The notes under the pieces were generated by a model. It was not told the origin of the DNA. It was given only the letters and a program-made list of their open reading frames with translations, and made no database searches. 49,511 nt of DNA. Source: Pseudomonadota bacterium. Lineage in GTDB: Bacteria > Pseudomonadota > Gammaproteobacteria > Burkholderiales > Thiobacillaceae. Positions 1-34,987 of the stretch are shown here, one piece after another. The position numbers and the translations under genes were made by a program. Position 1 is the first letter of the stretch. Each line of letters opens with the position of its first letter. The DNA is taken from assembly GCA_030684775.1 (NCBI GenBank), contig JAUXXW010000218.1, positions 1 to 49,511 on the forward strand, given 5' to 3'.

Positions 1-66
1 CAGGGACTGACCGGCCTCAAAAGGCACCCATATCGCAGGATGGCGGGCTGTACTCAGCCAACGTGA
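1..66 (-). ncRNA. Partial copy of repeated structured leader element (candidate radC-type RNA motif), leading a gene left of the window
   Basis: Nearly identical to 4686-4751: CACGTTGGCTGAGTACAGCCCGCC..GGGTGCCTTTTGAGGCCGGTCAGTCCCTG on the minus strand; cut by the window edge. Confidence 0.65.
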
Positions 67-152
67 AACGCTTTCAGTCTACCCAGATAGGCCTCACCTG
101 GACAACCGGATTGGTCGCCCAGGTGAGGCCCCTCGTGAGAGGGGCCAGGTTG

Positions 153-496
153 TTACAACCAGCCTCGATCGCAAAACGACAGATGCTCATTGCCGGCCAC
201 GATGATGTGGTCGACCAGCTTTACGTCCACCAGGCCAAGCGCGGCTTTGAGCTGGTCAGTAAGCCAACGATCCGCCTGTGATGCCTCGGCGGTGCCGGAC
301 GGATGGTTGTGCGACAGGATCACGCCGGCGGCATTGTGAGCCAGAGCCTGCTTTACGACTTCGCGGGGAGCTCGTCGGGAAACAAGCTAAACAAGCTTCC
401 TCCCGTTTCCATCAGCATGCAGTCGGCGGTGTTCTCGCCTACCAGCAGGGCCAACAGATCTCGGTTGGAAAGTTCTACAACGGGTTGAGACAGCAT
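153..496 (-). pseudogene. radC: radC/JAB-domain protein with internal deletion
   Basis: Minus strand encodes [39 protein letters not shown] (N-terminal part), then out of frame [70 protein letters not shown] (JAB HxHPSG motif). The middle domain is missing. Confidence 0.8.
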
Positions 497-575
497 CGTG
501 TCCTCCATTTCAGAAAAACACGGGGAGCCTCCGGGGAGGAGAACTCCCCGAAAGGGTTTGATGTAAGACCCGCAG

Positions 576-1340
576 TTACGCCGTCGGCGGCGCCACTGCC
601 TGCGACAACTCGGTGGCCACCTCGCGGCACAGCGCCGTGAAATCCAGCCCGCCGGCGGCGATCACTTCCAGAGTTGCTTCATCCAAGACTTGGACGATGC
701 GCGTAGCGCGCCGCTCCAGCTCTTGCCTGGCGATCTTCTGCCAGTCGTCGATAGCGCACAGACCACCCAGCGCCTTGTTGTCATTGCGGCCGTAGCCGCG
801 CAGAACGTCTTTCACAGTGGCGGCAGCGTTGTCATCACTGACCAGGTCCGCCACAACTGTTGCCAGGGAGTGGTAGTTGATCTCGTGCAGCGACTTGACC
901 AGGCCATCGACAGCCCCGCGATTCCATTTGCGCGGATATTGGATTCCTTGCCACGCAGCTTCCTCCTTCGACTTGATGAAATCTCCAACGGCCCACTTGC
1001 CTGCTTCATTCGGATAGGCGTCCAGCATGAGTTCCACTGGGCACGCCCCTCTTGTCGCGCAGTAATCGGCAAAAAGCGCCATGACCGGGTAACTGATAGA
1101 TCCATCGCAGGATTGCCCAGGGCAATAGGGGCGTGGTGATGTGTAGTGGAAAGTTTCAGCGCATTCGAGGACTTGGCCGAGCGACGGCTTGTCGTCAGAT
1201 CGGTACACGAAATGCTTGATTCCGCCTTCCACCTTCACATAAGCGTCAATGAGATAGTCGCCATTATCCGTATCCCGCCAGATGCTCACGCGGTGGTCCG
1301 GTTGAATACTTTCCATCTCCAGGTCGGTAGCGTGAGTCAC
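576..1340 (-). CDS. Hypothetical ICE protein
   Basis: 254-aa ORF; ATGA overlap with upstream ORF ending at 1337. Confidence 0.65.
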   Translation of the reverse strand: MTHATDLEMESIQPDHRVSIWRDTDNGDYLIDAYVKVEGGIKHFVYRSDDKPSLGQVLECAETFHYTSPRPYCPGQSCDGSISYPVMALFADYCATRGACPVELMLDAYPNEAGKWAVGDFIKSKEEAAWQGIQYPRKWNRGAVDGLVKSLHEINYHSLATVVADLVSDDNAAATVKDVLRGYGRNDNKALGGLCAIDDWQKIARQELERRATRIVQVLDEATLEVIAAGGLDFTALCREVATELSQAVAPPTA

Positions 1341-1756
1341 AGCGCCACCTCGCTTCCACGCCGCCGCAACTCCACCCCCGCAGCATGGCGAATTGCCGAG
1401 ACGACCGCGAAGCCATCTTCCTTCTCGATCACATCCAACTCATTCAGAAGGGATTCCAGCGCCACCAGGTCATATTCCTTGAGCAGGTAGTACAGGCCGT
1501 AAGCCATAGCCAGGAACGGCGGTGAATATGCGTGTCCAGGCTGGCCAGCTATTTCAAGGTGCATACCCGGAAAGAGCACGACCCGTTCCTTTGCCCGTTT
1601 GGTGCCGCGCAACAAGACGTACCAATAGCCGCCATCCATGTTGGCGCCACAGAAATTGTCAGCAACAACCACGCCCTCACGGCCTGGATATAGCGGTCCA
1701 CTAATGCGGTCCTGCTCGCGCGTTACGCGCACCCTCATACCAAGTTCTATTTGCAT
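1337..1756 (-). CDS. Hypothetical ICE protein (139 aa, MQIELGMRVRVTREQ...)
   Basis: ATG at 1756 downstream of recurrent leader hairpin; the longer ORF in the track runs through the leader and the adjacent gene. Confidence 0.65.
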   Translation of the reverse strand: MQIELGMRVRVTREQDRISGPLYPGREGVVVADNFCGANMDGGYWYVLLRGTKRAKERVVLFPGMHLEIAGQPGHAYSPPFLAMAYGLYYLLKEYDLVALESLLNELDVIEKEDGFAVVSAIRHAAGVELRRRGSEVAL

Positions 1757-1830
1757 GTTTTCGCTCCAGAAAAGAGCGAGAGGCCACCCCGTAGGGGCGT
1801 GAAGCCCCTCGCGGGTTGATGTTGAAAAGA

Positions 1831-2265
1831 TCAGGCCGGTTGCAACTGGCGCGGCGCCTTGATGGCGCAGTTCAGCGCCCGCATCTGCCGCTTGATTTCG
1901 GCATTCGCCTCTTTCTGGAAAGCCGGGAAGGCTTTCCTGGCATCGGCGATAGCCTCGCGGACCATGTCCGAGAAGTAAGAGCCGTAGCCTTTCCCGTTCA
2001 TTCCGAAGTGGTCCCGGAATTCCCTGGGGTCGGCATAGATCGAGTTGCCCAGGTACGACTCGGACAACACTATCTTCGTGGCGAGGTGAACTACCCGGAT
2101 GATGGAGGTAAAGCATTTCCACTCGCCGGTTCGCACCTTGGCGCGACATTCGTTGACCAGGTCCGGATCCATGTAGCCAAAATCCAGGGTATCCCGCTCG
2201 ATTAGCCACTCCACTGTGAAGTGGGCGGTTTTGAAACTCCACATTCTTGTCATGACGCATTCCAT
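1831..2265 (-). CDS. Hypothetical ICE protein (144 aa)
   Basis: ORF preceded by recurrent leader hairpin at 2288-2320. Confidence 0.65.
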   Translation of the reverse strand: MECVMTRMWSFKTAHFTVEWLIERDTLDFGYMDPDLVNECRAKVRTGEWKCFTSIIRVVHLATKIVLSESYLGNSIYADPREFRDHFGMNGKGYGSYFSDMVREAIADARKAFPAFQKEANAEIKRQMRALNCAIKAPRQLQPA

Positions 2266-2334
2266 GTAAAAACGGGAGCGCCACGATCCCCGGAGGGGCG
2301 TGAAGCCCCTCGCGGGTTGAAAAAAACAGATGAA

Positions 2335-3432
2335 TTACCGAATCGTCACCACCTGGCCGAAGCCAGACCCAGGCGTGAAATCAAGGCCCCGGATCACCGG
2401 CACGAAGGTGTCGGTCATCCGGATGGTTTCGACGATGCTGCCGTCTGCCTTGAATTCCTGGTCCACGGCGCGCGACTTCTCCTTGAAGGTGTCGCCCTTG
2501 ATGAGCAGGGTTCTGGAACCGGAACGTACTACACCGGAAATCTGCCCGGCGGCCAGCGCCAGCGCCAGATGCCATTTGGACAGATCGCGTAGCGGCCGCC
2601 TGGCCGGCAACGTAATTCGCCCATACATGGCGCCGAACTGTGGCCACAGAGTGTGGGCAGCAAGGCGGCGAACCTCGGCTTCCAACTGGGCGCCGTCAAT
2701 GCGCATCGAGGTGAAGGCAAACGCGTCTTCCGCCGTCATTGCCGGCACAAGATAGGGCTCACCACACCAGCCCTCGGGCAGCACTGGGGGGAGTTCTCCC
2801 TGGCCGGCTGCTTCGAGCGCTTTCGCGATCGCCAAATCAGGGCTGTCCGCCCGGCGCTTGACGCCCATGATCACGCATTGCTTGAACTGCTGCTCGGGCG
2901 CCATGTGAATCGTCACCCGCTCGAAGTGGCGGGCAATCATGGCGGCGAACTCGGCATCGAGCACGTAGTGAGGAATGATCAACACCATGACGCCGCCGAA
3001 CTGCAACCACGGCACCGTTTTGCGGTAGAAGATTTTTTCCAGGCGTTCGCGCTTGGCATCATCCCCGGTGCCGGCTTTGTCGGAAACGACCGCGCCGTAG
3101 GGAGGGTTCAGGAACAACAGCCCGAGGCTGCGCGCGGTCACGAACACGTCGTTCACGTCCGCGTGCGCCACGGTGTCGAGCAGCCCCTTCGCGTGCCAGG
3201 CACGTTCCGGGTCGAACTCCACGCCCAGGGCGGTCACGGCAGCACCGCATTCGGCCAGATGATGCTTGGCCTCGGCAAGCGCCACACCCTCGCCGCAACA
3301 GGGGTCGAAAATACGAACCCTGCCGGCGGCGATGTCCAGAGCGGAAAAAATCCGCTCCAGGGTCATGTCGTCGGTTGGGAAATAGCCGTTCTTGATAAAG
3401 TTGCGCGCGAGGCGCGAGAACATCAGAGCCAT
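2335..3432 (-). CDS. DUF6094-type class I SAM-dependent N6 DNA methyltransferase
   Basis: MALMFSRLARNFIKNGYFPTDDMTLERIFSALD...FDPCCGEGVALAEAK...LLFLNPPYG: SAM motif plus NPPY catalytic motif. Confidence 0.8.
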   Translation of the reverse strand: MALMFSRLARNFIKNGYFPTDDMTLERIFSALDIAAGRVRIFDPCCGEGVALAEAKHHLAECGAAVTALGVEFDPERAWHAKGLLDTVAHADVNDVFVTARSLGLLFLNPPYGAVVSDKAGTGDDAKRERLEKIFYRKTVPWLQFGGVMVLIIPHYVLDAEFAAMIARHFERVTIHMAPEQQFKQCVIMGVKRRADSPDLAIAKALEAAGQGELPPVLPEGWCGEPYLVPAMTAEDAFAFTSMRIDGAQLEAEVRRLAAHTLWPQFGAMYGRITLPARRPLRDLSKWHLALALAAGQISGVVRSGSRTLLIKGDTFKEKSRAVDQEFKADGSIVETIRMTDTFVPVIRGLDFTPGSGFGQVVTIR

Positions 3433-3549
3433 GTTGCCTCCATGCCAGAATTGGACGGAGACCCCGGACAGGGGAGCCCGTCCGGGTGGTAACGAAAATC
3501 CCCGGCAGCACAGCTGCACGGGGCTCAGTTGAGAAGGGGGGGCGCCTCG

Positions 3550-3828
3550 CTAATTCGAGAGCGCCTTATTCTTCCTACGGGGGTCATCAGCGCGAGATTT
3601 GTTCGCGTAAATGTCCAGCCAGGCCGCCTTGACATCGTCAGCCCAGAACATAACGGCCATACCTGATTCCACATCATGTTCAGCAACCGTCTTGCCATCA
3701 CGACAAATCCGGGGCTTCTCATGGCATGGGTCCATACCGTCGAACGCCTTGATGGCGTCCACGATATTGTCGTAGGGCTGCTCTTTCCAGCCTTGCCCAA
3801 AACCCAGGAACGACTTCACGGTAATCAT
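3550..3828 (-). CDS. Hypothetical small protein (92 aa)
   Basis: ORF coupled by ATGA overlap to the upstream ORF 3825-4286. Confidence 0.55.
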   Translation of the reverse strand: MITVKSFLGFGQGWKEQPYDNIVDAIKAFDGMDPCHEKPRICRDGKTVAEHDVESGMAVMFWADDVKAAWLDIYANKSRADDPRRKNKALSN

Positions 3829-4286
3829 GCGACAGCCTCCTCAATAAGTGGATCAACCAGAAGAAATGGCCGACCCCGCACGGACTGCTCGCGATCAGCT
3901 TGTCGGCGTTGCCGCATGGCCAGCTTGTCGCGGTTTTCCCGATTGACACGGTACTGCGTCAAATCGACAGGGCAGCAGTCAAGCCGCTCCGCCCACGTGT
4001 TCTCGATGCGGTCCGCGAGATCGAACATGCGGGCCTTGGGGTCGAGGGGGGAGACATAGCAGCCTAGGTCCATGCTCCAGGATTCCTGGAAGCAGCGGCC
4101 ATAAAGGCGATCACACAGCGAGAGCGGGAAGCCCACGCGCTGAGCGGCAACCTCATAGGCCCGGCGCTTCGATTTCTCGATGGCGTCCAGGCCGCTGTAC
4201 TGCATGTCACGCCAGTACATGCGAGCAAGCTCGTAGAACTGGTAGTACAGCGACTTCGTACTGCCGATGATCTTGGCGTGGCTCAT
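3825..4286 (-). CDS. Hypothetical ICE protein (MSHAKIIGSTKSLYYQFYELARMYW...)
   Basis: ATG at 4286 preceded by GAGGAG Shine-Dalgarno; upstream hairpin leader at 4326-4362. Confidence 0.6.
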   Translation of the reverse strand: MSHAKIIGSTKSLYYQFYELARMYWRDMQYSGLDAIEKSKRRAYEVAAQRVGFPLSLCDRLYGRCFQESWSMDLGCYVSPLDPKARMFDLADRIENTWAERLDCCPVDLTQYRVNRENRDKLAMRQRRQADREQSVRGRPFLLVDPLIEEAVA

Positions 4287-4378
4287 GGTGTTGCTCCTCG
4301 AAATATGAAAATGGAAAGGAACGACACCACCCCCAGCCGGGAGTGATGCGTCCCGGATGGGAAAGAAAAAATCGAACC

Positions 4379-4543
4379 TCAAGCCGGCGTCCAGGTTCCC
4401 TGGGTCATTGCCGCCAAGGCTTCTTGGAAATCCGGATAGAACTCGTCAGAAATACGACTGAATTCACGGTCAACTTCGTCGTAAAGCGCGACGAACCAAC
4501 CCCTTACAGATGAGAAGAGAACTGCGTATTGCATGACTTCCAT
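4379..4543 (-). CDS. Small hypothetical protein (54 aa, MEVMQYAVLFSSVRGWFVALYDEVDREFSRISDEF...)
   Basis: GGAGG SD before ATG at 4543; composite leader upstream. Confidence 0.6.
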   Translation of the reverse strand: MEVMQYAVLFSSVRGWFVALYDEVDREFSRISDEFYPDFQEALAAMTQGTWTPA

Positions 4544-4649
4544 GATGGCCTCCAGAAGGAAATGGGAAGCCACCATGTCCGATAGGACAGTCCCCGTGCT
4601 GGGAAGGTGGATCCCCAGCAGGGTTGAAAAACAGATTTACGATAATCCC

Positions 4650-4751
4650 GACCTCTCGCGAGGTGTGCCGGTACGGAGCGAACTCCTCAGGGACTGACCG
4701 GCCTCAAAAGGCACCCATATCGCAGGGTGGCGGGCTGTACTCAGCCAACGT
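4650..4751 (-). ncRNA. Repeated structured leader element, copy 2
   Basis: GGCUgaguacAGCC hairpin, CCGGU...ACCGG stem, GGAGuucgCUCC hairpin, ACCUCgcGAGGU-type hairpin; ~100 nt upstream of CDS 4379-4543. Confidence 0.7.
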
Positions 4752-5063
4752 GTTCCTCCATGAGACGGGTGCTATCCCATCGAGGAACCCGTCGGGTTCA
4801 GGTTGATTCATGGCGCCAGGTGGCATGTTGTTTACATCGTTCCCTGCGGGCATTGCCCGGGCGTCGGAATCGGGAACCAGGACGCCGAAAAAGGGGGTGC
4901 GTCTACGACGCAAAGGCCACGACAGTCTGGGTCGTCGTCACCCTGATTAGAAAAGCCCGTCGCAACAGGCTTTCCGCCGGGTTGGCCCGGTGGAAAGCCT
5001 GCTATCGCAGGCCTGGTTGATGTTTCACACCAGGTGCGCGAAGCGCACCTGGATGTAGCCGAC

Positions 5064-5651
5064 TCAGGTTTTCAGCTCCCAGGTCTGAGTTGCGGACTGG
5101 AAGCCATAGCCGAGCACCTTGAGCCGATCACGCTGGTTGCGGAACTGTCCACGGTCAATGGTCGGATCGAGTTTTACCGGCGCGCCGGCGGCGACAAGTG
5201 CGTAAAGCTCAGGGCCGAACAGCGCCGCATCAGGATCACTGGTGTCGGCGACCGGTGCCGCACCTTCAAAGCCTCCAGAGCCCACTTCCGCAGGTTGTTT
5301 ATCCGCGACCTCCCTCGAAGGTTGATCAACAGGATGCGCAACCCGCTCCTCGTTCACCGGGTCGGGCTCGAACGGGGCGGCGGGAACCGCTTTCTCTTCA
5401 GACTCTTCCAGGAAGATTTCGGAAACATTGACACGGATTTCTGTGACAACCCTTCCGCCCCAGACATACGTGGACGGGAAAATCTGGGTCACCAGAAAAG
5501 CTCCCCGATACTCCCCCTCTTCATACTGGTCCAGGATCGCGTCCTTGACCTTGAACTTGCCGATGGGGGTAGACAGATCACCGACGGCAAAACCACCGTT
5601 CTTGCCATTGATATGGCGCACCACCAGGGTGCCATCAAGCCTGACAGACAT
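5064..5651 (-). CDS. DUF3275 family ICE protein
   Basis: MSVRLDGTLVVRHINGKNGGFAVGDLSTPIGKFKVKDAILDQYEEGEYRGAFLVTQIFPS resembles DUF3275; ATG at 5651 after GGAG SD. Confidence 0.75.
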   Translation of the reverse strand: MSVRLDGTLVVRHINGKNGGFAVGDLSTPIGKFKVKDAILDQYEEGEYRGAFLVTQIFPSTYVWGGRVVTEIRVNVSEIFLEESEEKAVPAAPFEPDPVNEERVAHPVDQPSREVADKQPAEVGSGGFEGAAPVADTSDPDAALFGPELYALVAAGAPVKLDPTIDRGQFRNQRDRLKVLGYGFQSATQTWELKT

Positions 5652-5931
5652 GCTGTTCTCCAGAAAAAAGCCAGCCGGAGGCGCATGTCTCCCCAAGGGG
5701 AGCATTTAGCCCCCGGGCGAGCGGGTCGAAAAAACAAGGGAAGGAAAGAGGTTGGCCGCCACTCCGGTTAGGGAGTGGACGGTTGATTGAAACTCAGCCT
5801 CGGGTGTTCAGACCGAAGCAGTCAGGACGTGACCGTGTGGTCATGCCTCAGGTTGCTGTAGATGCAACAACTTGTGTGGAATTGGCGCTTCCAGGGAGCT
5901 CCTGGCGACAAACCACTCACGGCGGATTGAT

Positions 5932-6022
5932 TACATTAACCCCGAACACTTCCAATACCACCGGAAGCGTCGTACCGGTGTCAGGGGCTGACCGGTCTCA
6001 AAGGGCGCCACTTGCGTGGCAG
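5932..6022 (-). ncRNA. Divergent copy of the repeated structured leader element (copy 3)
   Basis: GCCCTTTGAGACCGGTCAGCCCCTGA...CACCGGT...GGGGTTAATGTAA keeps the conserved core; the GGAG-UUCG-CUCC hairpin is absent. Confidence 0.55.
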
Positions 6023-6132
6023 TTTTTGCGTTTTTGAGCCTGAAACGCACAAAACAGGGAACAAACCGTTTTCCCGGAACACCCCGGTTCAGGGTGCTCA
6101 GGGAAAACCCCTCTTGCGAGGGGCGGTGTGGT

Positions 6133-6255
6133 TCAAACCTGGTGAACGTGGGTGTTCTTGTGGTCATCCCTTCCCTTGCGGGAGAGGAAGTAAATAATCC
6201 AACCTACACCACCTATGGCGGCAATTACGCCGAGCAAGAAATATTCGAACATCAT
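6133..6255 (-). CDS. 40-aa small membrane protein MMFEYFLLGVIAAIGGVGWIIYFLSRKGRDDHKNTHVHQV
   Basis: ATGA overlap with stop of ORF 6252-6461; one strong TM segment; below track cutoff. Confidence 0.6.
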   Translation of the reverse strand: MMFEYFLLGVIAAIGGVGWIIYFLSRKGRDDHKNTHVHQV

Positions 6256-6461
6256 TTATCTCCTAGCAGTAGCAGCGCCAGTGACTCGAATTCCGCGAAC
6301 ACCAGTGCGGACACTAAAGTCATGAGGTACTGTTGTTCAGCGAACGAAGTATAGCCAAACGCCGCGAACTGGGCGATGGCGATGATCCTTGCGGTATCGG
6401 CCAAGTGCTTAGCCTGTTCCTTGTTGAGCCTCATGGGTTTCCTCATGTTTGTAGATGCCAT
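6252..6461 (-). CDS. Small predicted membrane protein
   Basis: ORF with hydrophobic segments (IIAIAQFAAFGYTSF, LMTLVSALVFAEFESLALLLL); start could be an internal ATG. Confidence 0.5.
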   Translation of the reverse strand: MASTNMRKPMRLNKEQAKHLADTARIIAIAQFAAFGYTSFAEQQYLMTLVSALVFAEFESLALLLLGDK

Positions 6462-6509
6462 TCGCCATCCAGGGAATTACTCCCCCGGATGGATCATGGT
6501 CGAGCCAGA

Positions 6510-7310
6510 TCAGGCGGCTTTTTCGGTGAGCGGGAATTCTTCCCCGTCCACCTTCGCCCAGGTGATGCGTGAGAGCGCACCCTTGAGCACCGCGTCAGTC
6601 TGACCTTTCTTTTCGCCACGTTCGTACTGGAACAGTTCAGCGCGAATACCGCTCGCGTCGAATCCAACCAGCACCTTCTTCTTGGCCAGCAAGGCATCCT
6701 GTAGGGCTTGAGCCGGAACCAGCGCATCCGGGCCGACGGCCAGGACGAAGCGCGTGGTTTCGACCTTACCACCCTCCACCGGATCACCGCGAAGCGCGGC
6801 GATGGAGGCCATCCAGACGTGCTCACCTTCACCAACGTGGACTTTACTCACTCGGTTGAGATAGCCGACACCAGACGTGACCAGCCCAACGGGAGGCTGT
6901 TTGCTGGGGGTATCGGTATAGGGCATGGGCGGCAGGTCAATGTCCTGACCATCCACTTTCGCCATATACACCTTGAGCACACGCCCCTTGATGTTGACAC
7001 CCATTTCACCCTGGCGTTTGCCGGACTTGTAGGAGAAAACCTCGGGGTAGATGTCACCGATTTTCAACTGGGCGATGACGGCCTTGCCGGCAACGGCCAG
7101 GGGCTTCAGAGCGAGCACGCAAGCCTTCGCGTGGGCGCCGACAACTTTCAGATCGAAGCGAGTGTTGCTGTTGCCTTCCGTGCGGAGGGCGGAGAAACGG
7201 CAGGCGATGAAACTGCCACGCTTGACTTGGACTTCACGAATGTCATCGACATGGCCGGTGGCGAACGTGTGCAGATCGAAATACTTGGAAGCAGAGGCGG
7301 GATTGGTCAT
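6510..7310 (-). CDS. STY4534/DUF3577 family ICE protein with two tandem DUF3577-like domains
   Basis: Both halves match the family pattern: N YFDLHTFATGHVDDIREVQVKRGSFIACRFSALR...; C LVTSGVGYLNRVSKVHVGEGEHVWMASIAALRG...FQYERGEKKGQTDAVLKGALSRITWAKVDGE. Confidence 0.75.
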   Translation of the reverse strand: MTNPASASKYFDLHTFATGHVDDIREVQVKRGSFIACRFSALRTEGNSNTRFDLKVVGAHAKACVLALKPLAVAGKAVIAQLKIGDIYPEVFSYKSGKRQGEMGVNIKGRVLKVYMAKVDGQDIDLPPMPYTDTPSKQPPVGLVTSGVGYLNRVSKVHVGEGEHVWMASIAALRGDPVEGGKVETTRFVLAVGPDALVPAQALQDALLAKKKVLVGFDASGIRAELFQYERGEKKGQTDAVLKGALSRITWAKVDGEEFPLTEKAA

Positions 7311-7404
7311 GGTGATCTCCAGAAATAAAAAGAAGGGGAGACCACCCTGTCAAAAATGACAGTTCCCATATGGGGACGGTGGATCCCCAGATGGGTGAAG
7401 AAAA

Positions 7405-7526
7405 GTAGCATTACGTTAATCCCAGTCTCTTGCGAGACGTGCCGGTACGGAGCGAACTCCTCAGGGACTGACCGGCCTCAAAAGGCACCCGTGACGCTGG
7501 GCGGCGGGCTGTACGAAGCCAACGTG
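7405..7526 (-). ncRNA. Repeated structured leader element, copy 4
   Basis: Near identical core to 4650-4751 with compensatory changes in the terminal hairpin (GUCUCgcaaGAGAC vs CCUCgcGAGG); upstream of DUF3577 gene. Confidence 0.7.
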
Positions 7527-7561
7527 AAACTGTGTTTAGTCTATTCAGCCGAAAAAGCGTG

Positions 7562-8290
7562 TCAAGCCCGTTTTTTTCTCATGGCGAGAACGCGGGGGCC
7601 TGCCTTCGCTAGATCGACTTCCGACCTGAGCCAGCGCAACTCGCCCACATGCACCACAGACTCATAGGCAGAGATGGATTCATTCCAGTCCGACTCGTCA
7701 TCCTCTGCGGAAAAGGAGAGGCAAGCCGCCAGCGCCGCGCCGTTTTCAGGTGACGCCTTGAATTCGCTCTCGCGGACTTCGTATTCGATCGTGCGCCACA
7801 CCCCATCCACATCAATGACCTCACAAATCCCATATTCGGGATGGTGTACCAGCGCGCCGATAGGGCATCTTGCAGGTGCATGAAGCATGTCCATCTTGAT
7901 CGCCTGTTCATGATTCGGTGATGGGGTATGCGGGCGGGTATCCATCGGCCGCCGAGGAGAAAGAAGGGAAATGCGCCCATTCATCCCCAGAATTCTGGAT
8001 AGCGGTTGCTTCATCGGATCCCGTGGGAAATCCTGTTCACGCAACTCGTTCACGTCCACCTCGACCTCATGAATCGTGATCGTCGCACTGGAGAGGACGG
8101 ATTCCGGGTCTTCGTCCGGTTCAAGATCGGAAGTATCAGGAACGGCATCCGGCACACGCTCGTCATAGAGCACAGTGCGTTTTGCACCTGATGCGCCTGT
8201 CACCTCGCATAAACCGTACTCGGGATGAAAGGCCAGCGTACCTGGCTGGCATTTGTGAGGGGCGGGGAAGGAAAGAATAGTGGCTGCCAT
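7562..8290 (-). CDS. Hypothetical protein with two internal HPEYG-containing repeats
   Basis: GTLAFHPEYGLCEVTGASGAKRTVLYDERV and GALVHHPEYGICEVIDVDGVWRTIEYEVRE within one ORF. Confidence 0.6.
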   Translation of the reverse strand: MAATILSFPAPHKCQPGTLAFHPEYGLCEVTGASGAKRTVLYDERVPDAVPDTSDLEPDEDPESVLSSATITIHEVEVDVNELREQDFPRDPMKQPLSRILGMNGRISLLSPRRPMDTRPHTPSPNHEQAIKMDMLHAPARCPIGALVHHPEYGICEVIDVDGVWRTIEYEVRESEFKASPENGAALAACLSFSAEDDESDWNESISAYESVVHVGELRWLRSEVDLAKAGPRVLAMRKKRA

Positions 8291-8406
8291 GAGCATCTCC
8301 AATGAGGGTTGATCGGGTTCAAGCGCCCGCGCGGCGCTACGCGTAAGAAAGAACCCGCCCCGGAAGGTACTGATTGGACGGCCTGAAAACTGCTGGACTG
8401 AATTCT

Positions 8407-8435
8407 GACATATCCACAGTTTCTGTGGATATGTC
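8407..8435. repeat. Perfect inverted repeat GACATATCCACAG-TTT-CTGTGGATATGTC
   Basis: 13-bp perfect arms, 3-nt loop, in the topB/downstream-gene intergenic region. Confidence 0.9.
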
Positions 8436-8511
8436 TGTCAGAAAACGCCGCGAAGCTTCGCTTTATCCTTGCCCAGCAGCGACTTGGTAACCTGCCTCAG
8501 AAAAAGGCAGG

Positions 8512-10715
8512 TCATGTCCTGACCCAGTAGAAATACCGGCATGACGGAAACCCGGAGCAACCCAAAAACGGCTTGTCATTATGGCTGCGCAGCACCAGCG
8601 CCCCCGTGCCGCATGTCGGGCACTTCTCGCCGGCCTTGCCAGGTGCGGATGTCTCTCTTGCAGCCGGTGCGGGTCGCTCAGCGCGGGAAGTGCTCTCGGG
8701 AGGCGGCAACCCAGGCTTGCCATCCTCGTCCGGCAATGTTTGCCGACACTCCGGGTAGGCTGAACACCCCCAGAACCCGCCGTTCTTGCCCTGGCGCCGG
8801 CGCATCGGCTTATGACAGGCGGGGCAGGGGTAGTGCGGCCCATCGTCATGGACAGGCTTGCTTCCGTCACCCTGGCCACGCGCCGCGCGCCCTGGATTCT
8901 CCGCCTTCAGCTTCGAGACCAGGCCGGCTACGAATTCGGATTGCAGCGCCAGGAAGGCATCCATGCCGGCGCGGCCGGCGGCCACTTCCTCCAGCGCCTG
9001 CTCCCATCGCGCCGTGGTCGCCGGGTCAGTCAACACGGCCGGCAGGATGTCGATCAGGTTGCGGCCTTTCTCGGTCGACACCAACCACTTCTTCTTCTCG
9101 ACGCGGATGTATTCCCGCGTAAAGAGGTTCTTGATGATGGCGGCACGGGTCGCTTCCGTGCCGATGCCGGCGGTTTCCTTCAACACGCTTTTCAGCCGTG
9201 GATCGGTGACATTCCGCCCCACGTTCTTCATGGCCCCGATCAGCGTGCCTTCGGTAAATCTAGCGGGCGGTTGGGTTTTCTTGGCCGCCAGGTCGGCTTT
9301 CAGGCAGGGAACGGATTCACCCTGATTGACACGGGGGAGGCGCGAATCCTGACCCTCCCCTTCGGCGGCCGAGTCCAGGGATAAGAAAGCCAGCTTCCAG
9401 CCGGGCTTGGTCGGCGTCCGCCCCGTGACCTTGAAGGTTTCCTCCTCACAAACCACCTCGATCTTCTGCTTCAGGAATTCATGGTCGCCCAGGAACTGAG
9501 CCAGGTAATGCCGCACCACCAGGTCATAGATGCGTCGTTCCGCCGGCTTCATGGCCGACACGTTCACCTGAATGTTGCCGGTCGGGATGATGGCGTGGTG
9601 AGCCGTGATCTTCCGATCATCCCAGGCGCGCGAGCGGATTGAGGGATCCACCTTGTCCATCACGCCGACGACATCCGGGTACACACGCCTGACCGCTTCC
9701 AACACGCGCGCGGCCTCCACGAACTGGGTGGAGGGCAGGTAGGGGCAATCGGTACGGGGATACGACGTGGCCTTGTAGGTTTCATACAGCGCCTGAGCAC
9801 ACTCCAGCGTCTCGGCCGCGCCCATCCCCCAGCGCCGCGAGGCCTCCTGCTGGAGCGTGGACAGATCGAAGGGGAGGGGAGGCGGCTCCTTCGCCGGCGC
9901 CGTCTCAGCCAGGGAAACTCGCCCCGTTTTGCCTGACACCTTGTCCACCACCGCCTGTGCGGCGGCGTTCGACAAGCATCGTCCCTCATCATCCGCCACA
10001 CCTTCCGGCGGCACCCACAGGCCTGGAAAGGCACCTTCACGCGCCTGGAAGGACGCCGACACCATGAAGTAATCCTTGGGCTTGAAGTTCTCGATCTCGC
10101 GGTCGCGCGCGACGATCAAGGCCAGTGTGGGCGTTTGCACCCTGCCTACGGATACCACCCCGGAAGCCCCTTGCCCTTGCCATGCACCACCGTGTAGGCA
10201 ATCGTCAGATTCATGCCGACCAGCCAGTCCGCGCGAGAACGTGCCATGCCGGCGAGGTACAGGGCGCGGGTCTTCTCTCCGGGAAGGATGCTGGCCAGCG
10301 CCTTACGGATGGAGACGTCGTCCAGCGCCGAGAGCCACAACCTCGACACCGGCCCGCGCCAGCCGTGCTTGTCCAGAACCTCCCGGCCGATCATCTCACC
10401 CTCCCGATCGGCATCGGTGGCCACCACCACTTCAGAAGCACTCTTGAGCAACTTCCCGATCAGGCTGAACTGTTTGTTCGCCGATGCCTTGACTGCGGTC
10501 TTCCAGCCGTCAGGTAGCACTGGCAGTTTCTCCAGCGCCCACAGGGACAGGGATTCGTTGTATGCCTCGGGCGGCGCCAGTTCGATCAGATGGCCAAAGC
10601 ACCAGGTCACGGTGACATCCTGGCCCTGTAAGCAGCCGTCGCCTTGGCGGTCGGCTTTCAGGACTCGGGCAATGTCTCGGCCCTGGGAGGGCTTTTCACA
10701 GAGGTAAAGTTTCAT
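8512..10715 (-). CDS. topB: DNA topoisomerase III, split into two frames (10146-10715 and 8512-10158)
   Basis: First ORF ends SRADWLVGMNLTIAYTVVHGKGKGLPG; the second resumes VVSVGRVQTPTLALIVARDREIENFKPKDY in the -1 frame; C-terminal zinc ribbons CPACHKPM..CSAYPEC and CPTCGTG..CSGFPSC. Confidence 0.9.
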
Positions 10716-24921: not shown

Positions 24922-26250
24922 ATGTTTACTCCCGTGCGTCTCGTTGCCATCTCACTCACTATCCTGGCCTTTCCTTCTCTCGCGCTGGCTGCCGACGGCC
25001 CCGCATTGCTGGGTATTCCACTGGAATTCATCCTGTTCGCCCTGACCCTGCTGGGGGTGGCACTGTTCCACCATCACACCCTGCTGGTCGCGCTCACCGG
25101 CCTGGCCACCATCACGCTCTACAAACTCGGCTTCACCGGCATTCATGGCGTTGCCGGTCTGCCCGGCCTGGCCCTGCACCTGGGACATGAGTGGGTAACA
25201 CTTACCAATCTGCTCGGGCTGTTGCTGGGCTTTTCCATACTGGCGCGCCATTTCGAGGACAGCCGCATCCCCGAAGTGCTGCCACGTTACCTGCCGGACG
25301 ACTGGAAAGGCGGTTTTGTGCTGCTGGTGATGGTGTTCGTGCTGTCGTCCTTTCTCGACAACATCGCGGCGGCGCTGATCGGCGGCACCGTGGCGGCGGG
25401 GGTATTCCATCGCCGCGTGCATATCGGTTACCTGGCGGCCATCGTCGCGGCATCCAATGCCGGCGGCTCCGGTTCGGTGGTGGGCGATACCACCACGACC
25501 ATGATGTGGATAGACGGCGTCGCGCCGCTCGACGTGATCAATGCCTATGCCGCCGCCATCCCGGCGCTGCTGATTTTCGGCATCTTCGCCGCGCGGCAGC
25601 AACAGGCTTACGCGCCGATCCAGAAGAGTGCCGGCGTGCATGCCCGCATCGACTGGGCCTATGTGGTGATCGTGGTGTTGATTCTGGCGGGCGCGATGAC
25701 GACCAACATCGTGGTCAACACACACTACCCGGAACTGTCCGAGTCCTTCCCTTTCCTGGGCGTGGCGGTGTGGCTGGTGGTGCTGGCCTTGGCGCCTTGG
25801 CGCAAGCCGGAATGGAGTTTGTTGCCGGATGCCATCAAGGGCAGCGTGTTCCTGCTTTCATTGGTGTTGTGCGCTTCCATGATGCCGGTGGAAACCCTGC
25901 CGGCGCCCTCCTGGCAAACCGCCTTCGGCCTCGGCTTTGTCTCCGCCGTGTTCGACAACATCCCCCTTACCGCCCTGGCCCTCACCCAGGGCGGCTACGA
26001 CTGGGGCGTGCTGGCTTATGCGGTAGGCTTCGGCGGCTCGATGGTGTGGTTCGGTTCCTCGGCCGGCGTTGCCCTTTCCAACCTGTTCCCGGAAGCCCGC
26101 TCGGTCGGCGCCTGGGTCAAGGGCGGCTGGCATGTGGCGCTGGCCTATGTGATCGGCTTCTTCATCATGCTGGGCACGGTGGGCTGGCATCCGCATACGC
26201 CGCACAAGGAGCCAGCGCAGGCGATACCGGTTCAGGAGCCGCGCCCATAG
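24922..26250 (+). CDS. NhaD/citrate-transporter-like (ArsB/NhaD superfamily) antiporter
   Basis: SSFLDNIAAALIGGTVAAGVFHRRVHIGYLAAIVAASNAGGSGSVVGDTTTTMMW. Confidence 0.85.
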   Translation: MFTPVRLVAISLTILAFPSLALAADGPALLGIPLEFILFALTLLGVALFHHHTLLVALTGLATITLYKLGFTGIHGVAGLPGLALHLGHEWVTLTNLLGLLLGFSILARHFEDSRIPEVLPRYLPDDWKGGFVLLVMVFVLSSFLDNIAAALIGGTVAAGVFHRRVHIGYLAAIVAASNAGGSGSVVGDTTTTMMWIDGVAPLDVINAYAAAIPALLIFGIFAARQQQAYAPIQKSAGVHARIDWAYVVIVVLILAGAMTTNIVVNTHYPELSESFPFLGVAVWLVVLALAPWRKPEWSLLPDAIKGSVFLLSLVLCASMMPVETLPAPSWQTAFGLGFVSAVFDNIPLTALALTQGGYDWGVLAYAVGFGGSMVWFGSSAGVALSNLFPEARSVGAWVKGGWHVALAYVIGFFIMLGTVGWHPHTPHKEPAQAIPVQEPRP

Positions 26251-26271
26251 TCGTGATGGTGTTGTCGAAAA

Positions 26272-29200
26272 TTACCGTCCAGCGGCTTTGCCGAACCCGT
26301 CACGCAGGGTTTCCAACGCGGCATGGAAGTCATAGTCATCCGCCTGTTTGAGAAGTCGCGCAAGGGTTTCCGCGGGTAGGGTTTGCTCCAACTGTGGCGC
26401 AATGCCGCGCAGGGTGGCGATGGCGCGCAGATCGTCGGTGGCGAACAATTCCTCCAGGTGGGCGACCGCCACGCCCAGATCGATTCGGGCGTCCGCTCCA
26501 CGGTCCACAGCCGCTGCTTCCTCGGGCAAGGCTTCGAGCACGGCAATCGACAGCGCGGCGAATGCCTGATCCAGTTGAGAAATCTGATCGGCGAAAGCGG
26601 CCATGCCGGTGTCGTTCGGATCGGCATCGCGTATGGCCACTTCCAGTCGGGTGGCCAATTCCTGCAAGCGTGTTGCTCCCAGCGTGCCTGAAGTGCCCTT
26701 GATCGTGTGCGCGATGCGCCTGGCCGAGGCGTAATCGCCAGCCTCGAATTGACTCCGCAACAAGTTCATGTCGCCGCTGTGGGCCACGACAAACCTGCGC
26801 AGCAGTCGTGCATAGCTGGGTAACTTGCCGCGCACACTGCGCAAGCCGGCACCCAGATCGAGCCCGTCGATGCTGGCCAGTTTGCCGAGCAAAGCGGAGT
26901 CATCCTCAGCGCGCTTTTCTTCCTTCATTACCGGGAGTTGTACGGAACGCCGTTCCGGCAACCATTTGGCGAGGGTGGCAAACAGCACATCCGGGTCAAC
27001 CGGTTTCGGCACCAGATCGTTCATGCCGGATTCCAGGCACTGGCTCTGTTCCTCGGCGAAAACACTGGCGGTCATCGCCAGAATCGGGGTGGCGGAGTAA
27101 TTCGACAGGCGGCGAATGGCCGCCGTTGCGGCCAGACCATCCATCACCGGCATCTGCACATCCATCAGTACCAGTTCGTAATCGTGACCGCGCGCCTTTT
27201 CCACCGCCTCGCGCCCATCACCGGCCAGGTCGGCGCGAATGCCGACCTCACGCAGCAGGTCGAGCGCGACTTCCTGGTTGATCGGATTGTCTTCCACCAG
27301 CAACACATGGCGACCACGCAGTTTGGCGAGCAGGCTGCCCGTCTGTGCGCGCGGTGACGGCTGGCCATCCAGTGTGCCGGCCGTTGTATTACTCCGCTGC
27401 ACGCGCGCGGTAAACCAGAACGTGCTGCCCTGCCCTACCCGGCTTTCGGCGCCGGCCTGGCCGCCCATCAACTGTGCCAGTCGGCGGCTGATCGCCAGGC
27501 CCAGCCCGGTGCCTCCGTATTTTCGGGTGGTGGAACTGTCGGCCTGCTCGAAAGATTTGAAAAGATGCGGCAGGCGGTCGGCGGGAATGCCGATGCCGCT
27601 GTCCTCCACTTCGAAACGCAGCAGCAAGCCGCCATCGCCTTCCTCCAGCAAACGCGCTCGCAGGGTGATCTGGCCCCGGTCGGTGAATTTCACCGCGTTG
27701 GAAAGGTAATTGAGCAGGACTTGGGATAGGCGCGTCGAGTCGCCGCGCAGCGCGCCGGACAAGGTCGGCTCGATCTCGCGCGACAAGAACAGGCCTTTCT
27801 CGCGGATCTTGTCCTCCATCAGGCTGGAGGCCCCATTCAACACCTGATCCAGGCTGAAGTCGGCATTCTCCAGGGTGAGTTTCCCGGCTTCGATTTTGGA
27901 AAAATCGAGGATGTCGTTGATGATGCCCAGCAAGTGTTTTGCCGCTTCCGCGACCTTGGCCAGACGCGTTTGCTGACCGGCGTCACGCACGTCGCGGCGC
28001 AGGAGATAAGTCAGTCCAACGATGGCATTCATCGGGGTGCGGATTTCATGGCTCATGTTGGCCAGGAACGCGCTCTTCGCCTGATTCGCCGTCTCGGCGG
28101 CGGTCATCGCGCTGGCCAGTTCCTCCGTTCGCCGCGCCACCTGGTCTTCGAGGTGAAGGCGGTAGCGCGCCAATTCGTCGAGATTGTGCTTTTCCTCTGT
28201 GATGTCCTGAAAAGCGGTCACCACGCCCTGAATTCGCCCATCGGCATCGACTATGGGGCGTGCATTGAGTCTGACCGGGAAGCCCTCGCCGTTCTTGCGG
28301 AAATACCATTGCTCGCCGGAGTAGGGGCGCCCACTTTGCAGCGTGATGAAGATCGGGCACGCCTCGCGGGCATAGTCACTACCATCGGGATGGTGATGGT
28401 GAGTGAGGCCATGCATGTCACGGCCCAGCGCCTCCTCACGGGTGAAGCCCAGGTTTGCGAGCGCGGTGGCATTGATGAAGGTGATGTTGCCCGCCTTGTC
28501 GATGCCGATCACGCCCTCACCCAGGCTTTCCAGAAGGGCATCGCGCAGCGCCAGGCGCTCGGCTTCCGCCAGCGCCGCGCGCAGGCGGCGATTGACCCGG
28601 CGCATGGCGACCAGGGCCACAGCCGCCACCAGCAGCGCGGCCAGTGCCGCCATCACCCAGTGCGAATAGCGTTCGATGAACATGGAGAAGGTGAACTGGT
28701 AATCCGGGTGTACCCGCAGCTTCACCATGATGGTTTCTATCCGGCTGTAGTCGCCGGCCGGCGCGAAACCGAAGAATTTGCCCGTCCGGGCCACCTCGCT
28801 GTTCGGGTCCAGTTCGAACAAGGCCTGCACCACCTGCTTGGTGAACCATCCGGGCACCCCGGTGGTCGCCGAAAACGGCCATTCGGGATAGAGGTCGGTG
28901 GAAATCTGTTGCGGGAATTCCGGTGTCTCCGCCTGTTTCAGCACCCTCAACTGACCGGGTTTGAGCTTGCCTTCCTTGACCAGGGCCTCGATCACGCCGG
29001 TACGCACGAAACCGGCGTCGACTTGGCCGGAGAGCACCTCGAACACCACCTTGTCATGCGGCATGCCGGTGAATCGCAGATCGCGGATATCGCGGGTGAT
29101 GTCCACGCCGGCTTGCAACAAGGCCCAACGCTGCATCAGGTAGCCGCCCAGCGATTGTTCGCTGGGCGAGGCAAGACGTTTGCCCTTGAGGTCCAAGAGT

Positions 29201-29649
29201 GTTTTCAGGTCCGGGCGATCCGCCCTGACCACGATGACCCCACCGAACTGGCTGACCGGAAAATCGCCCGCCATCGGCATCAGGGTCGCCTGCGCGGTCA
29301 GGCCGTAACGCGAGCGCAGCAGGACGTAATGCTCTGGATTGGTCAGGACCATATCCAGTTCGTGGCGCGCCACCGCCTGATCGAGGTCCGGGTAGTACAG
29401 GGGCACGATGCGAAAGCGATATCCGGGTATGCGTCGGCTGAGATAGTCCGCGAGCGGCTGCCATTGCAGGGTGGTGTGTTCTATGGAACGGAAGGAAAGC
29501 ACGCCCAGGCGCACGTCCTGGAGCACGGGCTCCACGGCCCGTGCGGTGGAGCACGCAATGAACAGCAGGAGCAGGCCGGGCGTCGCCGCGCGCGCCCAAC
29601 GCGCGAGCACCGCAATCCCTCGCCCCCACGCCCCGGCCAAAGCAGTCAT
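26272..29649 (-). CDS. PhnD-type periplasmic sensor / PAS / histidine kinase / receiver / Hpt hybrid kinase
   Basis: Start at 29649 (MTALAGAW...); PhnD-like domain, FLANMSHEIRTPMNAIVGL H-box, GTGLGLAI, VLMDVQMPVMDGL receiver, HTIKGTSGTLGA Hpt. The ORF beyond 29649 is read-through antisense frame. Confidence 0.9.
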   Translation of the reverse strand: MTALAGAWGRGIAVLARWARAATPGLLLLFIACSTARAVEPVLQDVRLGVLSFRSIEHTTLQWQPLADYLSRRIPGYRFRIVPLYYPDLDQAVARHELDMVLTNPEHYVLLRSRYGLTAQATLMPMAGDFPVSQFGGVIVVRADRPDLKTLLDLKGKRLASPSEQSLGGYLMQRWALLQAGVDITRDIRDLRFTGMPHDKVVFEVLSGQVDAGFVRTGVIEALVKEGKLKPGQLRVLKQAETPEFPQQISTDLYPEWPFSATTGVPGWFTKQVVQALFELDPNSEVARTGKFFGFAPAGDYSRIETIMVKLRVHPDYQFTFSMFIERYSHWVMAALAALLVAAVALVAMRRVNRRLRAALAEAERLALRDALLESLGEGVIGIDKAGNITFINATALANLGFTREEALGRDMHGLTHHHHPDGSDYAREACPIFITLQSGRPYSGEQWYFRKNGEGFPVRLNARPIVDADGRIQGVVTAFQDITEEKHNLDELARYRLHLEDQVARRTEELASAMTAAETANQAKSAFLANMSHEIRTPMNAIVGLTYLLRRDVRDAGQQTRLAKVAEAAKHLLGIINDILDFSKIEAGKLTLENADFSLDQVLNGASSLMEDKIREKGLFLSREIEPTLSGALRGDSTRLSQVLLNYLSNAVKFTDRGQITLRARLLEEGDGGLLLRFEVEDSGIGIPADRLPHLFKSFEQADSSTTRKYGGTGLGLAISRRLAQLMGGQAGAESRVGQGSTFWFTARVQRSNTTAGTLDGQPSPRAQTGSLLAKLRGRHVLLVEDNPINQEVALDLLREVGIRADLAGDGREAVEKARGHDYELVLMDVQMPVMDGLAATAAIRRLSNYSATPILAMTASVFAEEQSQCLESGMNDLVPKPVDPDVLFATLAKWLPERRSVQLPVMKEEKRAEDDSALLGKLASIDGLDLGAGLRSVRGKLPSYARLLRRFVVAHSGDMNLLRSQFEAGDYASARRIAHTIKGTSGTLGATRLQELATRLEVAIRDADPNDTGMAAFADQISQLDQAFAALSIAVLEALPEEAAAVDRGADARIDLGVAVAHLEELFATDDLRAIATLRGIAPQLEQTLPAETLARLLKQADDYDFHAALETLRDGFGKAAGR

Positions 29650-29797
29650 GAGACGCTCCCTGTTCCGCGCGGGGCTTCCACCCGCCGGGCCGGGCTGGAC
29701 AAGGTGGCGCGTGTCTCGTGGCTCACGCGCGGCCGGGACGTGGGTTGGTTTAGGCGCAACGTAGCGCGGCGGATGGCTGTCCCGGGTTTTCGCATCG

Positions 29798-31027
29798 CTA
29801 AACCATGCCGCGCGCGTGCAGGGTACCGAGCTTGAGCTCGAGCGCCTCGTCGCTGTCGGCATAACGCACCAGGATTTCCTGAAAGGTGCCCTTATTGGCG
29901 AGGAAGGCCGCCACCACGTCCGGATCGAAGTGTTTGCCGCTGCCTTCAGTGATGAGCCGCACCGCCTGCTCGAACGGCATCGGCTCCTTGTAGACGCGCC
30001 GGCTGGCGAGGGCGTCGAAGACATCGGCCAGGGCCATCAAACGCGCGGGGATGGGAATGGCGTCGCCGACCAGGCCGTCCGGATAACCGGAGCCATCCCA
30101 CTTTTCGTGGTGCCACATGGCGATTTCCTTGGCCACGGCGAGAAAAGCCAGGGGTGCGCTTTCGAATTCCCGTATCGCCGAGGCGAGCGCATTGCTGCCC
30201 ATGTGGCGGTGTTTCTGAAGAATCAGGAAGTCCTCGTCGCTGATTTCATCACGCATGGCCAGATTGATGGCATCGCCGCCGATGCTGCTGTGGGTTTTCA
30301 TGATCTCGAATTCGTCGGCGGTCAGGCGTCCGGGTTTCAACAGGATGCTGTCGGGTATGCCGACCTTGCCGATGTCATGCAGCGGCGCGGCCTTGGCCAC
30401 CATCTGCGCGGTCGCGTCGGTGAAGTAGCCGGAAAAGCGCGGATGCGCGCGCAGATGCGCTACCAGCACTTCGATATAGGCCTGGGTGCGACGAATGTGC
30501 TGGCCGGTTTCCATGTCGCGCGCTTCGGCCAAGCTGGCGAGTGCGCGAATACTGACGTCCTGCATCAACTGGTTGTCGCGCATGCGCCGGGCGATTTCGC
30601 TTTCCAGCCAGGCGTTCTTGTCATTCAGCCAGTCGCGCGCCTGCTTGAGTTCCATGTGGGCCTTGACCCGCGCCAATACGACGGCGGGGCGGATCGGCTT
30701 GGCGATGTAGTCCACGGCGCCCAGTTCCAGGCCGCGTTCCTCGTCCTCGTCGGCATCCATGGCGGTGACGAAGATGACCGGGATGTCGCGGGTGCCGGGG
30801 TCGGCGCGCAGTTCATTGATGACGGCGTAGCCATCCATCTCCGGCATCATCACATCAAGCAGGATCAGGTCAGGACGCGGCTTGCTGGCCGCCACCTGAA
30901 GCGCGCGCTGGCCGGAATTGGCGACCCGTACCCGGTACCTGGGTTGCAACAACTCGCCCAGAACGGTGAGGTTTTCCGGCGTGTCATCGACGACCAGAAC
31001 GGTGAGTTTGGCGGCTTCTTGCGGCAT
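29798..31027 (-). CDS. Response regulator with HD-GYP domain (putative c-di-GMP phosphodiesterase)
   Basis: LVVDDTPENL..LLDVMMPEMDGY receiver; HDIGKVGIPD ... HHEKWDGSGYPDGL. Confidence 0.95.
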   Translation of the reverse strand: MPQEAAKLTVLVVDDTPENLTVLGELLQPRYRVRVANSGQRALQVAASKPRPDLILLDVMMPEMDGYAVINELRADPGTRDIPVIFVTAMDADEDEERGLELGAVDYIAKPIRPAVVLARVKAHMELKQARDWLNDKNAWLESEIARRMRDNQLMQDVSIRALASLAEARDMETGQHIRRTQAYIEVLVAHLRAHPRFSGYFTDATAQMVAKAAPLHDIGKVGIPDSILLKPGRLTADEFEIMKTHSSIGGDAINLAMRDEISDEDFLILQKHRHMGSNALASAIREFESAPLAFLAVAKEIAMWHHEKWDGSGYPDGLVGDAIPIPARLMALADVFDALASRRVYKEPMPFEQAVRLITEGSGKHFDPDVVAAFLANKGTFQEILVRYADSDEALELKLGTLHARGMV

Positions 31028-31199
31028 GTGTCGACCAGGGGTCAGGGCAATCGCGATAAGAGGGGTCTCATGCGAGGCTTAACGGCAGATTCGGAGGGAA
31101 CTTGAGTAGGTGGCCTGCATGGATGCCTTCAGGCCGAATTGCCGCCATGGTCGCCTGTCCTGTTCGTCTTGGTCGTTGATCAACGTGTTCGCGCCTGAG

Positions 31200-31310
31200 T
31201 GAGTGGCCTCCCCCTTTTCAAAGGGGGAATGAGGGGGATTTAGCGACGTTTGCCTGGGCAGCCGCCTCAGAAATCCCCCCTACCCCCCTTTGATAAAGGG
31301 GGGGGCGCTG
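31200..31310. repeat. Palindromic CCCCCTTT..AAAGGGGG intergenic repeat
   Basis: ccccttttcaaagggggaatgagggggat...atcccccctacccccctttgataaaggggg; related copy at 32100-32275. Confidence 0.7.
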
Positions 31311-31355
31311 CGCCAACCGCATCACCAGCTAACGAGAAAAGCGCCCTTATCCGGC

Positions 31356-31685
31356 TTACGGATTCGCTGGATTGCCGGTTACTCCCGTACTGACCGGATG
31401 TGTCACATAAACCAGGCGCAGCTTTTCACCACCCACCCGCTCGATCAGCGCGGCAATCTTGCTGTCATCCGCGAAGAATTCCACGGTTTCCGGCAATTTT
31501 CCCGCCAGCTCGAAGAAATGATCCTCATGGAGACCATGACGGCCAAAGCCCGCCGCGGCGCGAAACACCGTGCCGCCGGGAATATCCAGCCCTCGCGCGG
31601 CCGCGAACAGCCATTCGTGGATGGACTGGTGGCCGTGTTTCATGCCTTCCTGGACATAGAAACGGATGAAGATGGTTTGCGGCAT
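31356..31685 (-). CDS. DUF190 family protein
   Basis: MPQTIFIRFYVQEGMKHGHQSIHEWLFAAARGLDIPGGTVFRAAAGFGRHG. Confidence 0.85.
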   Translation of the reverse strand: MPQTIFIRFYVQEGMKHGHQSIHEWLFAAARGLDIPGGTVFRAAAGFGRHGLHEDHFFELAGKLPETVEFFADDSKIAALIERVGGEKLRLVYVTHPVSTGVTGNPANP

Positions 31686-31687
31686 GG

Positions 31688-32065
31688 CTATCCCCTTATC
31701 TGGCCGTACGTCCACACCCCCAGCGCGGTAAAAGCCAGGGAACCGAACAGATGGACGGACGCCGTCCCCAGCGCCCAGGCCAGTTGCCCACGGCTGATGA
31801 GGGTGAAGACTTCGGCGGAAAACGTTGAAAACGTGGTCAGGCCGCCGAGAAAGCCGGTGATGACGAATAGCCGCCACTCCGGCGACAAGCCGGGGTGCTG
31901 CACGAAAAAGACGATGGCGATGCCGACCAGATAGCCGCCCAGCAGATTCGCCGCCAGGGTGCCGTAAGGCAGTGTCGGGAACAGCGGATTCAGCCACAGC
32001 CCCAGGCCCCAGCGCAGCCAGGCGCCGAGGGTGGCGCCGAGTCCGATGGCGAGGAAGGAAGTCAT
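31688..32065 (-). CDS. crcB: CrcB-type fluoride channel
   Basis: [18 protein letters not shown]...[16 protein letters not shown]...[16 protein letters not shown]. Confidence 0.95.
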
Positions 32066-32099
32066 GGAGTCAGTCGCTACCGTGCAAGGCAATGAAGCG

Positions 32100-32275
32100 C
32101 ATTACTCACCCCTTTGCAAAAGGGATGGCTGGGGGGGGGATTTCTGCGGCGGTTGGCCATGTAAAGGTTGCCAAATTCCCCTCAATCCCCCGTTGGGAAA
32201 GGGGGAAGGTGCCTCAGTCAGCGCCCCAGGTATTTTCAACGGCAAATGCGTACAGAGCCTTTGGTAAAGGGGGGT
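32100..32275. repeat. CCCCTTT/AAAGGGG palindromic intergenic repeats
   Basis: Several inverted arms between crcB and glgP; related to 31200-31310. Confidence 0.65.
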
Positions 32276-32280
32276 GAAAA

Positions 32281-34833: not shown

Positions 34834-34867
34834 GGGGGGGCTCCGTTAACGTGAAACAACTGCGGTG

Positions 34868-34987
34868 CCGTAGGAGCGGCTTTAGCCGCGATGCGGGCGG
34901 CAGCCCGCAAAGGTGGAACGGCGTGGTCTTGGTGAGCATTTGCACTTTGCGCCTCACGGCGCATCGCGGCTAAAGCCGCTCCTACGC
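34868..34987. repeat. REP doublet GTAGGAGCGGCTTTAGCCGCGATGCG / GCATCGCGGCTAAAGCCGCTCCTACG
   Basis: Two inverted copies, the second overlapping the 3' end of orn. Confidence 0.85.

Follow-up and report, generated by a model that had tools for sequence, protein, structure and literature searches.

Repeated pseudoknot leader RNAs in an ICE of the PFGI-1/pKLC102/SPI-7 type and their resemblance to radC RNA

The ICE region and its four leader copies

The DNA analyzed here, referred to as the window, is a stretch of 49,511 nucleotides (contig JAUXXW010000218.1, positions 1 to 49,511) from a bacterium of the Thiobacillaceae, order Burkholderiales. Its first 24 kb are an ICE of the PFGI-1/pKLC102/SPI-7 type, carrying STY4534/DUF3577, DUF3275, topoisomerase, DUF6094 methyltransferase, PFL_4669-family and ICE ParB genes. 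The element probably ends near 24–25 kb, and genes for a hybrid histidine kinase, a response regulator and a glucan phosphorylase are found at about 25000–35000. The gene for the DUF3577 (STY4534-family) ICE replication protein lies at 6510–7310 on the minus strand, and its product has two DUF3577 domains, compared with one in most relatives. The DUF3275 gene is at 5064–5651, also on the minus strand. Two further minus-strand genes are irregular. In the topoisomerase III gene (8512–10715), about the first 186 profile positions are absent from the frame, and an overlapping upstream frame suggests a frameshift. The RadC-like gene at about 160–508 is not one open frame, there being no ORF of at least 80 aa on its strand, and is either a pseudogene or an assembly error.

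A reading based on the sequence only had proposed four copies of a structured element ahead of minus-strand genes, and four minus-strand copies were indeed located at those places: c1 (1–65), c2 (4636–4752), c3 (5930–6050) and c4 (7410–7526). The identity is 98% over 65 nt between c1 and c2 and 86% over 127 nt between c2 and c4. We refer to the repeated element as motif A and to a second element, situated between it and the start codon, as motif B.

The c4 copy leads the DUF3577 gene and was identified by sequence, covariance model and covariation. A promoter-like region at 7538–7565 (minus strand; TTGACA at 7560–7565, 16 nt, TAGACT at 7538–7543) ends about 11 nt ahead of its motif A. Within c4, a stem is formed by 7471–7476 with 7441–7446, a UUCG insert occupies 7449–7460, a terminal hairpin lies at 7425–7438, and a pseudoknot joins 7464–7469 to 7418–7423; the stem, the terminal hairpin and the pseudoknot are all supported by covariation. 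Motif B of this leader (7311–7396, minus strand) consists of hairpin B1, an inner hairpin and an anti-SD segment, the last of which (7337–7346) pairs with the SD region GGAGATCACC at 7311–7320. Just upstream of c4, the minus strand encodes at 7562–8290 an ICE protein with two segments resembling the CarD/TRCF RID, an RNA-polymerase-binding fold. The protein is a candidate partner of the leaders; as a universal partner it was rejected, having been found in only five elements (the window and four others).

The divergent c3 copy, in the long leader of the DUF3275 gene, was recognized by the covariance model and covariation; its stem pairs 5991–5996 with 5974–5979 and its pseudoknot pairs AGCCCC (5984–5989) with GGGGTT (5938–5943). 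The c2 copy was supported by sequence, covariance model and covariation, with a stem (4697–4702 with 4667–4672), a terminal hairpin (4651–4664) and a pseudoknot (4690–4695 with 4644–4649), and it is followed by an SD-sequestering motif B (4544–4624, minus strand) ahead of a 54-aa gene starting at 4543. Hairpins resembling motif B and sequestering the SD also occur without motif A at 4287–4362 (minus strand), ahead of the gene starting at 4286, and similar hairpins precede the genes starting at 3432, about 1756 and 508, as judged by inspection of the folds by eye.

The contig end cuts the c1 copy, so that the window holds the 5′ half of its motif A. The 3′ half, together with the gene it leads, is at the end of contig C7 (locus L027) of the same genome, which overlaps the window by 5 nt. 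The overlap indicates that the copy is probably complete, and the position of the missing half indicates an assembly break within the repeat. This break, between window positions 1–5 and the end of contig C7, was likely caused by the repeat.

The copies had been supposed to control different operons, a view that calls for caution: the DUF3577 copy has a TTGACA promoter, but most other copies are intergenic within one cluster and lack TTGACA. Across elements, a TTGACA box lies upstream of 18 of 82 copies, mostly those of DUF3577 genes, compared with a background of 4%.

Structure of motifs A and B

Motif A opens with a hairpin at its 5′ side, which in many copies takes the form of a small pseudoknot. 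Another hairpin follows, and then a core pseudoknot, in which a 6-bp stem has a hairpin next to it and the stem loop pairs with the tail. In 83 distinct copies, 97.8% of the cells of the stem, hairpin and pseudoknot were paired, and double changes were observed in 15 of 21 pairs. The covariation score was 0.351 versus 0.125 after shuffling, and the signal was abolished when the partners were slid against each other. The alignment had been fitted to the stem and the hairpin and not to the pseudoknot. The repeat is a conserved structured RNA family.

The structure first suggested was right in two of its helices and wrong in one, and it overlooked the core pseudoknot, the main feature of the motif. 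The CCGGU/ACCGG stem and the terminal hairpin covaried strongly, with double changes at every pair among the 83 distinct copies and with stem variants such as GCCGGU/ACCGGC, GCUCGU/ACGAGC and GCCGUU/AACGGC. The GGUGCC/GGCAC helix was rejected, as it was paired in 56% of cases, did not exceed shuffles, and showed no covariation. The GGAG-UUCG-CUCC hairpin exists, but it is an optional insert, seen only in the copies of the window and of a genome of the same genus (G019). The pseudoknot that had been missed varies as AGUCCC/GGGAUU, AGCCCC/GGGGUU, AGUUCC/GGAAUU and AGCCUC/GAGGUA. A subset of copies additionally carries two covarying 5′ elements, a small interleaved pseudoknot (ACUG/CAGU and GGCUG/CAGCC) and, after it, a hairpin whose loop is of the CGUCA type.

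Paired positions contained 121 G-U cells versus 17 A-C cells, with nearly constant G-U within the pseudoknot; this excess indicates that it is the sense strand that folds, and that the molecule is RNA. The folding energy of motif A alone, compared with shuffles, gave z of about 0 for c4 and c2 and −2.2 for c3. Because the energy is no better than that of shuffles in two of these three copies, the case for motif A rests on covariation and not on stability.

Motif B begins with a hairpin of the form CCC..GGGGA..UCCCC..GGG, followed by an SD-complementary segment, a pyrimidine-rich spacer, the SD and the start codon. In 46 non-redundant leaders, the anti-SD segment paired with its own SD at −13.4 kcal/mol versus −10.8 kcal/mol with swapped SDs (p = 8e-7, a generous value since the leaders are related to each other). 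Matched changes of the two partners include UGGUCUCC/GGAGACCA, UGCGCUCC/GGAGCGCA and GGUUGUCUCC/GGAGACAACC. On average, the minimum-energy folds leave 0.7 of 5 SD bases free, and motif B folds beyond its shuffles in both c4 (z = −6.25) and c2 (z = −4.6). Thus, with a conserved helix over the SD, these leaders have the form of cis-regulatory leaders with SD sequestration.

Distribution and relation to radC RNA

A covariance model built from ten copies gave 87 matches across 26 loci, with a maximum of 10 in one element. We used 82 of them, the other five being partial or false. Strong matches occur in ICE-like regions of 14 genomes from the same family and of one genome from another family of the order (G254), and close relatives were found in two other genomes of the same genus (G019 and G022). 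Plasmids of Burkholderia cenocepacia and Comamonas aquatica each gave one weaker match in which loop and tail are complementary. A copy in genome G369 was retained because its loop (AUCUCC) and tail (GGAGAU) match perfectly. Matches in seven genomes outside the order were chance-like, and no convincing pseudoknot or ICE context was found in those inspected. Eight pattern matches on viral contigs, at only 16–18 bits, were likewise chance-like, and a blastn search of one window leader against plasmids gave no match. As the searches sample genomes, the true range may be wider.

Across elements, motif A stands ahead of DUF3577, usually of DUF3275, and also of a helicase gene and of several genes without a known function. 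It lies 120–180 nt upstream of the start codon in most leaders; the leader of the c3 type has a length of about 350 nt. The DUF3577 leader of B. cenocepacia plasmid pTY921B (locus L109, 11820–11990) has no model match; it carries a motif B whose U tract is strong and, possibly, a third kind of stem-hairpin-tail core.

The repeats had been likened to radC RNA (RF01754), which Weinberg et al. catalogued in 2010 as structured and probably cis-regulatory (PMC2864571). In that paper, radC is named in a table and a citation only (PMC2864571), and a literature search found no later study of radC RNA and no paper on leaders of the window type. Membership in radC was not borne out: RF01754 had no match in the window at its gathering score (40 bits) or, at E ≤ 10, in 1–9000, and a search of the window's own genome gave no hit on this contig. 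The repeats matched no other Rfam family either. Kinship, on the other hand, was supported by leader position, pseudoknot topology and the downstream module.

In pKLC102 and its relatives, RF01754 matches at 75–143 bits occur 2–4 times per element ahead of orthologous genes, one of them directly ahead of DUF3577. We read radC RNAs in pKLC102-family plasmids and one genome, G763 (loci L107, L111, L113–L115 and L126–L152). In the 28 that were inspected, the order is stem-loop, adjacent hairpin, loop-complementary tail and then a module resembling motif B. The loop and tail pair as GGUC/GACC, GAUC/GAUC, GACC/GGUC and GGUU/AACC (native versus swapped, p = 1.6e-4), and an SD-sequestering helix follows (p = 0.006). 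The pseudoknot is absent from the structure line printed with the Rfam radC matches.

Both RNAs therefore share an arrangement that for radC is defined in this analysis, a stem-loop with an adjacent hairpin and a tail-loop pseudoknot, as well as a similar SD-sequestering module downstream. Both belong to elements of one ICE superfamily, where each element has several copies, leading DUF3577 and other ICE genes. In contrast, no covariance-model match was obtained in either direction, the window RNA conserves CAG...CUGA where radC has ..GAUCUUCAA.., and in radC a further hairpin domain, which the window RNA lacks, separates the pseudoknot from motif B. The hosts also differ, with the window RNA found here in Burkholderiales elements and radC in those of Pseudomonas, Stutzerimonas, Enterobacter and Tistrella. 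The window RNA is an uncatalogued sister class of radC RNA and not a member of it, and the two cores may plausibly descend from a common ancestor.

The STAXI motif (RF01728, PMC2864571) likewise combines a pseudoknot and UUCG loops and is situated close to DNA-processing genes on mobile elements; however, it consists of two or three tandem pseudoknots in Enterobacteriales, whereas the window RNA occurs as single copies in separate leaders (PMC2864571 for STAXI). Membership in STAXI was rejected, as there is no Rfam match and the copies lie more than 1 kb apart and not in tandem.

Proposed control of ICE genes by the leaders

We lean, by a little, towards a cis-acting leader that represses translation by default through the SD helix and is relieved through motif A. 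The repeats would be the structured 5′ part of two-module leader RNAs on ICE genes, in which the helix of motif B would hide the SD and keep the DNA-processing genes of the ICE translationally off. A factor recognizing motif A, probably an ICE-encoded protein, would then alter motif B so that ribosomes can start. A common regulator of the several copies, as first proposed, is plausible. The preferential pairing of anti-SD segments with their own SDs, the folding of motif B beyond shuffles and the placement 120–180 nt from the start codon support SD control, as do the radC leaders of the same design with their pseudoknot and SD helix. The c3-type leader, with motif A distant from the start codon, weighs against it. 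The coupling of A to B is offered as a proposal, since B-like elements also occur before genes that have no motif A. A link through base pairing between the tail of A and the 5′ arm of B1 was considered and rejected on inspection as inconsistent between families.

The main rival explanation is that the leaders control transcription instead. Motif B can form a competing helix T, which covaries (native versus swapped, p = 8e-6) and is followed in 55% of leaders by at least 5 U in 9 nt (mean 4.8 versus 2.2 expected). Helix T and the U tract would then be a terminator, and motif A would let polymerase through by attenuation or processive antitermination, acting either like put or EAR or together with an RNA-polymerase-binding ICE protein. 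The put RNA of phage HK022 and the EAR element of Bacillus work by antitermination, and they too are structured leader RNAs near an operon start, with possible terminators downstream in the window case; however, neither has an Rfam match here, and most window-type copies are inside the cluster beside an SD-sequestering module. The recurrence of B-like elements without motif A, as if one A served several terminators, and the RID-like protein just upstream of c4 also fit this explanation. Nevertheless, we regard it as unlikely: the T state is a median of 6.5 kcal/mol above the SD-sequestered fold, 45% of leaders, c1 among them, have no good U tract, the up to 10 copies of motif A inside clusters would be needless for one processive element, and the RID-like protein was found in only the five elements.

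Less probable still is a metabolite riboswitch, with motif A as the small-molecule sensor and motif B as the expression platform. The layout, an SD-sequestering platform behind a pseudoknot core, is a usual one for riboswitches, and the CAG...CUG and tail positions are invariant, but most core positions vary freely, the RNA is limited to one kind of mobile element, and the genes served are DNA-processing or of unknown function and form no metabolic pathway. We consider it very improbable that the repeats are Frpo-like single-stranded-DNA promoters or leading-region priming sites, where folding of the transferred strand would allow the genes to be read immediately in the recipient. Such promoters are similarly repeated, structured and placed before genes of conjugative elements, and the hairpin-rich repeats here precede DNA-processing, radC-like and methyltransferase genes. 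However, folding of the template strand would turn G-U pairs into C-A mismatches, so the G-U bias places the structure in the sense RNA; the GNRA and UUCG-type loops are RNA-like, and the TTGACA promoter lies upstream of the structure and not within it, which is not the Frpo arrangement.

It is possible that one ICE superfamily has a leader design in common, a pseudoknot RNA with an SD-sequestering module, ahead of many of its DNA-processing genes, and that replacement or divergence of the pseudoknot part has given rise to at least two mutually unrecognizable classes, radC RNA and the window RNA. If this is true, there would be an ICE-wide post-transcriptional regulon, with a cognate factor co-evolving with the RNA. 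A second class with the topology, leader positions, pseudoknot and SD module of radC offers a concrete, testable mechanism for radC RNA. The results suggest that conjugative elements of a large group may control their genes after transcription has begun.
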